32,093 nt of DNA from NCBI GenBank assembly GCA_944393745.1, contig CALYBD010000030.1:1-32093 (forward strand), written 5' to 3'. A program made the position numbers and the translations under genes. This document shows positions 1 through 19,389 of the stretch, piece after piece. The stretch is from an uncultured Alphaproteobacteria bacterium. GTDB lineage: Bacteria; Pseudomonadota; Alphaproteobacteria; CAAGCB01; CAG-977. The notes under the pieces are model-generated. The model saw only the letters and a list, made by a program, of their open reading frames with translations. It did no database searches and was not told the origin of the DNA. The stretch's first letter is position 1. Each line of letters opens with the position of its first letter.

Positions 1-101
1 GCCTTACACTGAGCCGACGTTGCATAAGTAGCTTGGGAATCTGACGCGGATAAGAACACCGCGATCAGTGTTGATAAAAAGATTAAAGTTGTTTTTTTCA
101 T
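1..101 (-). CDS. Secreted protein, N-terminal fragment (runs off left edge)
   Basis: This is an open frame from an ATG at 99-101 reading leftward off the window, with 33 codons and no stop. The residues begin MKKTTLIFLSTLIAVFLSAS and continue to ATYATSAQCK, a clear Sec signal peptide (lysines, then a hydrophobic core, then small residues), so the product is exported. A good ribosome site (AAAGGAT) lies about 11 bases upstream. A cysteine appears right after the predicted mature start; the gene at the opposite end of the window is a secreted cysteine-repeat protein, but no homology can be judged from so little sequence. The gene sits behind a long structured leader at 104-303. Function is unknown. 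Confidence 0.75.
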   Translation of the reverse strand, partial: MKKTTLIFLSTLIAVFLSASDSQATYATSAQCK

Positions 102-103
102 CT

Positions 104-303
104 CTGAACAATCCTTTTTGTTTCGGTTAAACAAAAACCTACCCGAAAAGGTAGGCGGATGTTCAGAAACCGTATATCAGTTTACGGCTCGGCGGTTTCG
201 CGCAAAGCCTTATAACGCCGACACCCGCCCGCATGGGACAGAAATCGGCATAATTATTTAAAGTCGCTTTATGCATCGCGACTACTGATAAAAGGGTTTC
301 TGA
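104..303 (-). promoter_or_regulatory. Structured RNA leader, copy 1 (candidate riboswitch-like element)
   Basis: Read on the minus strand, a long-range helix closes the element: TCAGAAACC (303-295) pairs with GGTTTCTGA (171-163), and ATCAG (289-285) with CTGAT (180-176). Inside are a hairpin AGTCGC/GCGACT (283-278 with 267-262), a helix ATGCCGA/TCGGCGT (251-245 with 221-215), and a 14-base block GGCGTTATAAGGCT (219-206) identical in copy 2 at 18649-18662. A terminator-like hairpin CCTACC/GGTAGG (155-150 with 143-138) is followed by TTTTTGTTT. The 3' strand of the closing helix, CTGAACATCC (166-157), can alternatively pair with GGATTGTTCAG (114-104), which contains the ribosome site. I do not recognise it as a known riboswitch class. 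Helices were found by eye, not by a folding program. Confidence 0.7.
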
Positions 304-338
304 CGCCCTGAGCCGTTGATTTAAACGACCTGAGAAAA

Positions 339-347
339 ATTATATCA
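339..347 (-). promoter_or_regulatory. Extended -10 promoter for the leader and secreted-protein gene
   Basis: On the minus strand the sequence reads TGATATAAT, a perfect -10 hexamer with the TG extension. A TTGACG lies at 362-357 but only 12 bases away, too close to serve as its -35, so the TG motif would have to compensate. It would start a transcript near 332, giving a leader of about 230 bases that includes the whole structured element. Confidence 0.45.
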
Positions 348-18318: not shown

Positions 18319-18395
18319 GGGTCCATAGCTCAGTTGGTTAGAGCGGGGCGCTCATAACGCCTTGGTCGGGGGTTCAAGTCCCTCTGGACCTACCA
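18319..18395 (+). tRNA. tRNA with CAU anticodon, probably tRNA-Ile2
   Basis: This is a 77-base cloverleaf: acceptor GGGTCCA/TGGACCT, D arm GCTC...GAGC, anticodon stem GGGCG/CGCCT with loop CTCATAA (anticodon CAT at 18353-18355), T arm GGGGG TTCAAGT CCCTC, and an encoded CCA. The TTGGTC variable region with TTCAAGT in the T loop is like tRNA-Ile2, whose C34 becomes lysidine, rather than elongator tRNA-Met; an initiator is excluded by the lack of its GGG/CCC anticodon stem. The first acceptor pair would be G-U. A terminator follows directly. Confidence 0.9.
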
Positions 18396-18519: not shown

Positions 18520-18547
18520 TTGATTAAACTGTCTGTGCGTTTATGAA
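18520..18547 (+). promoter_or_regulatory. Candidate promoter for the barrel gene and its leader
   Basis: TTGATT (18520-18525), 16 bases, TATGAA (18542-18547). Transcription would start near 18554, just before the closing helix of the RNA leader. Confidence 0.4.
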
Positions 18548-18563
18548 AAGATACACGCAGGGC

Positions 18564-18767
18564 TTCGAAAACCCTTTCTTATCTGGTCGCATTGTGTATG
18601 GCGACTGACAAATTATATGCCAAATCTGCCCTATAAGGAGCGGATGATGGCGTTATAAGGCTATGCGCGAAAGCGTCATGCCGTTTTCAGATAAGAACGG
18701 TTTTCGAACATCCGCCCGCCCTTTCGGCGGGTTTTGTTCAATCACATACCGAAAAGGAATGTTCGAA
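18564..18767 (+). promoter_or_regulatory. Structured RNA leader, copy 2 (candidate riboswitch-like element)
   Basis: The closing helix is TTCGAAAACC (18564-18573) with GGTTTTCGAA (18699-18708), extended by CTTATCTG (18578-18585) with CAGATAAG (18688-18695). Inside are hairpin GTCGC/GCGAC (18586-18590 with 18601-18605), helix ATGCC/GGCGT (18617-18621 with 18649-18653), hairpin ATCTGC/GCGGAT (18624-18629 with 18640-18645), and a GAAA-capped hairpin from GGC (18659) to GCC (18682). The block GGCGTTATAAGGCT matches copy 1 exactly. A hairpin CCCGCC/GGCGGG (18715-18720 with 18726-18731) is followed by TTTTGTT. TTCGAACATCC (18703-18713) can alternatively pair with GGAATGTTCGAA (18756-18767), sequestering the ribosome site. 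The ATG follows one base later. Confidence 0.75.
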
Positions 18768-18768
18768 A

Positions 18769-19389
18769 ATGAAAAAACTCTTTTTTATTCCGGCGGCTTT
18801 GATCGCTTTTTTAACAACAAACGCTTCGGCCGCCGAAGTCAAGCCGTTTGCCGGATTGTCAATCAATTACAGTGAATTTGACGGAGATGATGCCGATATG
18901 GATTTGGTTGAAGACCGCTTGTCTTCTTTTACTGTCAATGCCGGCGTTCAAATTAACCGTTATTTTTCTGTTGAGGCTTTTTATCAAAAATCAACAAACG
19001 AAGATAAAACCAATACGGGCTATCAATTAATTGCGACAGGCAACCCCGCCAGCGTAAAAACAAAAGTCAAATTTGATGCTTTCGGGCTTGACTTTAAAGG
19101 ATATCTGCCGACCAGCGTCAACAGCCTGGACGTTTTCGGTTCAATCGGGGTGGGAAAGTATAAATTCAAAGAATCTCTGATTATTTCAGATTTAGTCACC
19201 AGCGATGCCTTGGGCGATAAATATGATGAAGACAATCTCGGTTTCAGATTCGGTGTCGGCGCGCAATACCGTATTAATAATCATTGGAGCCTGAATCTGA
19301 CGGGACGTTACGTCAAAATCGACAACGGATCCGAAGATGTCGTTGAGGATCTGGGAGAATTATCTTTAGGTGTCAAATATTCGTTTTAA
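18769..19389 (+). CDS. Small outer-membrane beta-barrel protein
   Basis: The 206-residue product has a signal peptide ending NASA and then alternating hydrophobic/polar strands with the OMP_b-brl pattern: KPFAGLSINYSEF, FTVNAGVQINRYFSVEAFYQ, FGLDFKGYLP, VFGSIGVGKYKF, FRFGVGAQYRINNHWSLNLT, and a C-terminal strand LSLGVKYSF ending in Phe, the usual sorting signal for barrels. It is probably an 8-stranded OmpA/OmpW-size porin-like protein; the substrate is unknown. The gene is alone between two terminators and sits behind the second copy of the structured leader. Confidence 0.85.
   Translation: MKKLFFIPAALIAFLTTNASAAEVKPFAGLSINYSEFDGDDADMDLVEDRLSSFTVNAGVQINRYFSVEAFYQKSTNEDKTNTGYQLIATGNPASVKTKVKFDAFGLDFKGYLPTSVNSLDVFGSIGVGKYKFKESLIISDLVTSDALGDKYDEDNLGFRFGVGAQYRINNHWSLNLTGRYVKIDNGSEDVVEDLGELSLGVKYSF

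Follow-up and report, generated by a model that had tools for sequence, protein, structure and literature searches.

The window, that is, the whole 32,093-nt stretch of alphaproteobacterial DNA analysed here, carries two leader sequences that stand before different genes, and the question raised by this locus is what kind of RNA they encode. The first-pass annotation had described leaders at 104-303 (minus strand, copy 1) and 18564-18767 (plus strand, copy 2) with a common order of helices and an identical 14-base block; both leaders, their helices and their hairpin are present at these positions, and within the window the block (GGCGTTATAAGGCT) is seen at two sites and no others, 206-219 (minus) and 18649-18662 (plus). 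Copy 1 has TCAGAAACC/GGTTTCTGA as its outer helix and copy 2 has TTCGAAAACC/GGTTTTCGAA, an inner helix of the ATGCCGA/TCGGCGT type is found in both leaders, and the AGTCGC hairpin of copy 1 is a GGTCGC hairpin in copy 2. Pairwise alignment of the two leaders gave 72% identity, and both fold more stably than shuffled sequences (z of -5.7 for copy 1 and -6.7 for copy 2; 0 of 200 shuffles as good). The full element reaches from about 99 to 344 (minus) for copy 1 and from 18520 to 18771 (plus) for copy 2. This extension was absent from the first-pass annotation, as were a hypervariable private helix inside the outer one, an alternative fold, and pairing with the Shine-Dalgarno (SD) and start region.

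The pairing segments a1, b1, a′, b′, a2 and b2 are named here after the literature on phage P1, in which a1-b1 lies upstream of the C4 RNA. From 5′ to 3′, the element consists of a -10-like box, a variable hairpin, an AGGG/CCCT hairpin with a1 in its loop, b1, an AGTCGC-type hairpin, ATGCCGA, a body, a terminator-like hairpin and the SD/a2 region, with a2 overlapping the SD and extending into the start codon. The body is ~80 nt long and has three stems (GGCGGATG/CATCCGCC, TCGGCG/CGCCGA and CCGT/ACGG); the loop of the third holds b′, and a′ follows. The parts of copy 1, all on the minus strand, are:

339-344, minus: -10-like TATAAT just upstream of the leader, with TATAAT/GATAAT-like boxes at the same position in other copies
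311-330, minus: 5′ hairpin P0 (GGTCGTT/AACGGCT), from a family-wide hairpin test
293-309, minus: AGGG..CCCT hairpin with a1 exposed in its loop; paired in 98.6% of cells, with changes from AGGG/CCCT to CGGG/CCTG
295-303, minus: a1 (TCAGAAACC), the first of the partners of a′; the a1:a′ helix is paired in 99.4% of cells, with double changes in 3 pairs
284-289, minus: b1, the private key (ATCAGT), complementary to its own b′
262-283, minus: AGTCGC/GCGACT hairpin; 97.5% of cells paired, covarying
245-251, minus: ATGCCGA, upstream partner of TCGGCGT in fold 1; 90.2% of cells paired, 2 pairs with double changes
154-229, minus: putative antisense RNA body, sRNA-Xcc1-like; RF02221 positions 1-87 aligned at 145-230 with 31.9 bits, fold-2 helices covarying
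within 154-229, minus: body stems P1 (GGCGGGTG/CATCCGCC), P2 (TCGGCG/CGCCGA) and P3 (CCGT/ACGG)
176-181, minus: b′ (ACTGAT) in the P3 loop, complementary to b1
157-171, minus: a′ (GGTTTCTGAACATCC), pairing with a1 or with the SD/start region by predicted duplex energies
130-156, minus: terminator-like hairpin with a T-run
99-117, minus: SD, a2 and start codon (AAAGGATTGTTCAGAGATG), more complementary to its own a′ than to those of other copies (0 of 5000 permutations)
1-101, minus: start of the putatively regulated gene (MKKTTLIFLSTLIAVFLSAS..., signal-peptide-like), 33 aa before the contig end cuts the gene off

A consensus scan found no full sigma-70 match near copy 1, and from the sequence we infer that the promoter of this leader lies at TATAAT. 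The corresponding parts of copy 2, on the plus strand, are:

18536-18559, plus: 5′ hairpin P0 (TGCGT/ACGCA)
18559-18575, plus: AGGG/CCCT hairpin, supported by covariation, with a1 (TTCGAAAACC) at 18564-18573
18578-18585, plus: b1 (CTTATCTG), with 10 contiguous pairs to its own b′
18585-18606, plus: GGTCGC/GCGACT hairpin, supported by covariation and folding
18640-18716, plus: putative antisense RNA body, Xcc1-like; RF02221 positions 1-87 at 18638-18725 with 28.7 bits
18688-18695, plus: b′ (CAGATAAG), complementary to its own b1
18699-18713, plus: a′ (GGTTTTCGAACATCC), from predicted duplex energies with a1 and a2
18714-18738, plus: terminator-like hairpin
18752-18771, plus: SD, a2 and start codon (AAAAGGAATGTTCGAAAATG), with 12 contiguous pairs to its own a′
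18769-19389, plus: putatively regulated gene, encoding a 206-aa outer-membrane beta-barrel protein (Pfam OMP_b-brl, E 4e-22)

A tRNA gene lies at 18319-18392 of the window, ~140 bases upstream of leader copy 2.

When copy 1 was used as the query, 29 matching places were found in its own genome (2.25 Mb in 60 contigs, with an alphaproteobacterial tmRNA). A leader covariance model was then built from 55 full copies and gave 26 matches in the same genome, well beyond chance, which bears out the earlier reading of the leaders as a structured RNA family. The model also matched 21 places in the relative G004 and mostly 4 to 7 in each of the other family members (10 of 12 family genomes positive), and in a class-wide sample it found the leader in 22 of 385 genomes, spread over more than 10 other families. 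The search for further copies that had been proposed found them in the genome, the family and the class, with covariation persisting across the 55 copies. Many copies lie at contig ends, as is expected of repeats in a draft assembly. The leaders are a large, widespread and uncatalogued family in small-genome alphaproteobacteria. Scans of viral contigs for the a′/P1 motif and a plasmid search for the leader returned no match. A record from human feces labelled 'Bacteriophage sp.' (MT836653; L230, 560-780) carries a leader before a gene for a repetitive protein of the exported type (890 aa), and a resolvase-like reading frame lies farther along; the record may be a bacterial contig mislabelled as phage, and a phage origin of the leader was not accepted from it, the phage label of the record being unverified.

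The closing helix had been said to covary on the strength of two copies, and in the 55-copy alignment 99.4% of the outer-helix cells are paired and 29 show double changes. The alignment holds two sets of helices. Fold 1, made up of a1:a′, b1:b′ and ATGCCGA:TCGGCGT, is paired in 96.0% of cells and shows 56 double-change cells vs. 13.4 in shuffles; fold 2, in which the body pairs with itself, is paired in 97.8% of cells of the same alignment and shows 63 vs. 15.8. When the partners were slid out of register, the paired share fell to 29-46%. Nearly every copy thus keeps two competing folds, both of which covary. The 5′ hairpin P0, the sequence of which varies, has at least 6 pairs in 51 of the 55 copies compared with 17% of shuffles (mean stem 7.5 vs. 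4.6), and a terminator-like hairpin occurs 3′ of the body in 45/55 copies and 5′ of it in 0/55.

The helix nested inside the outer one is private to each copy. In 52/55 copies, b1 is complementary to its own b′ over at least 6 pairs, forming a helix of 6-10 bp, and the mean b1:b′ run is 8.1 in cis vs. 4.2 in trans (0 of 10,000 permutations as good). Wholly different keys are found even in near-identical copies, and in genome G000 all 13 of 13 b1 keys are distinct. Several keys recur in the related genome G004, where L071 and L079 have one key in common, and strict uniqueness of the key per locus was consequently dropped. The pairings of a′ are also copy-specific: 0 of 5000 permutations were as good for a1:a′ in cis vs. 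trans and likewise for a′:a2, the latter reaching at least 6 pairs in 49/53 copies. A b2 segment is absent from the ribosome-binding site of the window family (cis 6.23 vs. trans 6.28). Among trans pairs in G000, 60% reach 80% of the cis energy for a′:a2 and 0% do so for b′:b1; within a genome, a′ is largely common to the loci and b′ is private. A strict a2 pattern occurs at 6 places in the genome of the window, all 6 of which are leader copies by coordinate comparison, and no leaderless trans target with this pattern was found there. The few copies without a good a2 match or with mismatched keys are L043, L114 and L057, the three in which b1 does not match b′; they look chimeric or decayed, as could result if copies recombined with each other or at an attachment site.

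In the window copies, the predicted a1:a′ duplex energy is -13.6 kcal/mol (copy 1) and -13.5 (copy 2), and the predicted a2:a′ energy is -18.1 and -17.1 kcal/mol, respectively. The predicted full-length minimum is the a2-paired state (a′:a2) in copy 1 and the a1-paired state (a1:a′) in copy 2. These opposite modelled minima would show that the two states are close, as expected of a switch near balance.

Although the first-pass annotation recognized no known riboswitch or ncRNA core, this did not hold. At the Rfam gathering threshold, the sole match in the window was the tRNA, but a permissive Rfam scan gave sRNA-Xcc1 (RF02221) as a lead; the matches to 'drum', 'PyrD leader', Xoo2 and Afu_263 were weak or inconsistent and were set aside. 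RF02221 aligns end to end (87/87 positions) with both window copies, but the scores, 31.9 and 28.7 bits, do not reach the curated cut-off of 53. In the same genome, it aligned over model positions 1-87/87 at 16 places with E of 1 or better, the best copy scoring 40.7 bits, and end to end in at least 13 leader copies. Thus the leaders fall short of the curated cut-off for sRNA-Xcc1 membership, while their three stems align with the model from end to end and the helices covary. Scanning the named genome contigs with a single Xcc1 pattern gave four places, all unrelated.

True Xcc1 loci were collected with the RF02221 family model, which had matches in 58 of the 398 genomes of a phylum-wide sample, with 39 over the cut-off. 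The flanks of 30 Xcc1 loci showed the plan of the window leaders and, in addition, both a and b repeated at the ribosome-binding site of the gene that follows (permutations as good, of 5000: b1 5, b2 0, a1 0 and a2 9). The window family and Xcc1 therefore have in common the 87/87 alignment, the three stems, b′ in the third-stem loop followed by a′, an upstream a1-b1, an a2 where the next gene starts and, in some genomes, several copies per genome. They differ in score (28.7-40.7 of 53 for the window family), in b2, which the window family lacks and Xcc1 loci possess, and in the terminator-like hairpin, which follows the body in the window family (45/55) but precedes it in Xcc1 loci (21/30 before the body, 1/30 after). 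The novelty claimed relative to Rfam is reduced by this match, but is retained in view of the sub-threshold score and the different wiring. The Xcc RNA is 88 nt long (PMC2996969), and a 2025 study had already observed that Xcc1 precedes symE in integron cassettes of Xanthomonas (PMC12444791).

Ten loci found with RF01695, the C4 antisense RNA model, follow the same plan, with b1, b2, a1 and a2 all supported; Xcc1 and C4 loci share a1-b1 upstream, a body with b′ and a′, and a2-b2 at the ribosome-binding site of the next gene. C4 of phages P1 and P7 is an antisense RNA that RNase P releases from a longer transcript by cleavage 5′ of P1, and it binds target mRNA through a′ and b′, both at the ribosome-binding site and upstream of it (PMC5320573); the c4-a1b1 motif entry supports an upstream a1-b1 (PMC2864571). 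When the window family was compared with this plan, a1-b1 was found upstream and a2 at the ribosome-binding site, b2 was lacking, and RF01695 matched none of the leader copies, its only hit in the same genome being one 20-bit place on another contig. The likeness to C4 of P1/P7 thus lies in a1-b1, in a body with b′ and a′ and in having the ribosome-binding site of the neighbouring gene as target, whereas a′, rather than b′, covers the SD in the window family. Its body starts with GG(C), resembling reported RNase P sites (PMC5320573). The Group 1 C4-like sRNAs of Acinetobacter baumannii, for which processing from longer transcripts has been reported, likewise occur in many near-identical copies per genome with a short variable pairing segment; there, however, the variable part is the target-specific a′ loop, whereas in the window family the variable b′ pairs only with b1 of its own leader and the start-pairing a′ is shared (PMC5320573). 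In Rfam, c4-2 belongs to clan CL00128 and RF02221 has no clan, the Xcc1 and C4 covariance models did not overlap on the loci tested, and in the searchable literature we found no paper joining Xcc1 with C4, one listing both as separate families. The shared layout nevertheless suggests that sRNA-Xcc1 is of the C4 type. A c4-2 RNA-like place (RF02944, 34.8 bits, cut-off 41) was observed at L139, 2890-2958 (minus), in the same 3-kb locus as a true sRNA-Xcc1.

The genes that follow the leaders differ, as the first-pass annotation had proposed for a reusable leader with envelope proteins as the regulated set. In the genome of the window their products are mostly exported and comprise OMP_b-brl beta-barrels, Cys-rich repeat proteins, lipoprotein-like proteins and a few unknowns; in other families, lipoprotein-like, pilin-like, helix-turn-helix and unknown proteins were found. 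This agrees with both suggestions. The exported Cys-rich repeat proteins of G000 (L010, L009, L011, L012, L016 and L020) have similar signal peptides and diverse bodies, and they weakly match profiles of Giardia variant-specific surface proteins, probably owing to cysteine spacing alone. Ten downstream proteins were subjected to a domain test, nine after Xcc1-type leaders and one after a window-type leader. Eight of the nine were recognized, as Bro-N (three), KilA-N, P22_AR_N, Rha and SymE (two), and the tenth, after the alphaproteobacterial window-type leader L212, is a helix-turn-helix protein. Targets are thus mostly envelope proteins in the window family and phage antirepressors or SymE in Xcc1.

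Taken as a whole, we consider it probable that the leader forms an alphaproteobacterial branch of C4/sRNA-Xcc1-type antisense RNAs, placed in cis before the gene that it controls, and that a′ released from the body blocks translation. The family would be a rewired C4/Xcc1 variant in which a′ pairs with the SD/start region (a2), b2 is absent and the terminator comes after the body. The transcript would carry, in order, a1-b1, an antisense body of ~80 nt (b′ in a hairpin loop, then a′), the terminator, and a2 at the SD and start codon. In the unprocessed RNA, b1:b′ and a1:a′ would hold the antisense strand within the leader, so that the ribosome-binding site can be free. The body would adopt its own three-stem fold and probably be cut free by RNase P, as C4 is, after which the freed a′ would pair with a2 and translation would be blocked. 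Since b1:b′ is private to each locus and a′ common to many, the freed RNA could act not only on its own mRNA but also on those of sibling loci. The structure and pairing of the leader are supported by sequence covariation; we infer the transcription start, RNase P processing, the direction of regulation and trans action, the last three by analogy with C4. Against this reading stand the RF02221 scores, the best of which is 40.7 of 53, the failure of the C4 model to match any leader copy and the absence of b2, a segment that helps to define the C4 plan, and the terminator ahead of the gene (45/55) means that some read-through would be needed, with no clear element that switches it.

A riboswitch binding a metabolite or ion would also account for two mutually exclusive, covarying folds that end in SD sequestration and for the strong conservation of unpaired bases: the conserved core (the UUAUAAGG/UGAAUAAGG bulge, GCCGU and P1) would form the ligand pocket, and a1:a′ vs. 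a′:a2 the expression platform. We regard this as quite unlikely, because the layout recurs in Xcc1 and C4 loci, C4 being a known antisense RNA (PMC5320573), the downstream genes share no pathway, and 13/13 private keys that differ within one genome are unusual for a riboswitch. That the RNA is instead a free-standing, trans-acting sRNA whose place before genes is incidental would be in keeping with its own terminator after the body and with the description of Xcc1 as trans-acting, which is given in the title of Chen et al. 2011 as cited in PMC12444791. The copy-by-copy complementarity of a′ to the start region of the very next gene, and the restriction of the a2 pattern in the genome of the window to places where a leader copy is present, make this improbable.

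Lastly, the copies are numerous, dispersed and often at contig ends, prophage or island integrases lie directly at some of them, and Xcc1 is found on integron cassettes (PMC12444791), all of which would suit a mobile DNA element or recombination site (an attC-like hairpin or MITE) rather than an RNA. However, the compensatory changes follow a strand-specific order with the SD and start codon, the orientation before genes is fixed, with the terminator after the body, and insertions interrupt copies without defining them, so that we judge this reading very unlikely; a chromosomal integron (attC) was ruled out, the copies being dispersed and gene-oriented.

Signs of mobile DNA were seen at individual leaders. 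At L202 (minus strand) and at L029 (1-1400), which also encodes a phage tail-fibre-like protein, a tyrosine-recombinase-like integrase gene lies just downstream of leader copies cut at CGGTTTCTGA; the leader RNA seems to serve prophages or islands as an attachment site, a role that tRNA genes play for others. Insertions were also found at one spot of the body, after GGCGGAT, with one sequence in C57 and C24 and another in C1, C35 and C28 (the copies being L027 in C57, L018, which is the second copy of C24, L015 at ~2430-2640, and the starts of L017 and L029). This suggests that site-specific transposable elements target the leader RNA body.

The reading of the leader as a cis-linked C4/Xcc1-type antisense RNA links sRNA-Xcc1 (a 'trans-acting sRNA' of unclear role), the C4 immunity RNA of phage P1 and an alphaproteobacterial leader family, so far treated apart, and predicts cis-linked antisense regulation by sRNA-Xcc1 of the gene beside it (SymE or phage antirepressors). 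In one genome, a phage-style RNA switch with private and shared pairing elements has apparently spread across many envelope genes. A doubtful but possible extension is a genome-wide RNA circuit, in which the private lock b1:b′ would silence the antisense until the body is processed and the shared a′ would let one envelope gene repress its siblings; if true, an RNA of the phage-immunity type would provide coupled or mutually exclusive expression of a Cys-rich surface protein family.
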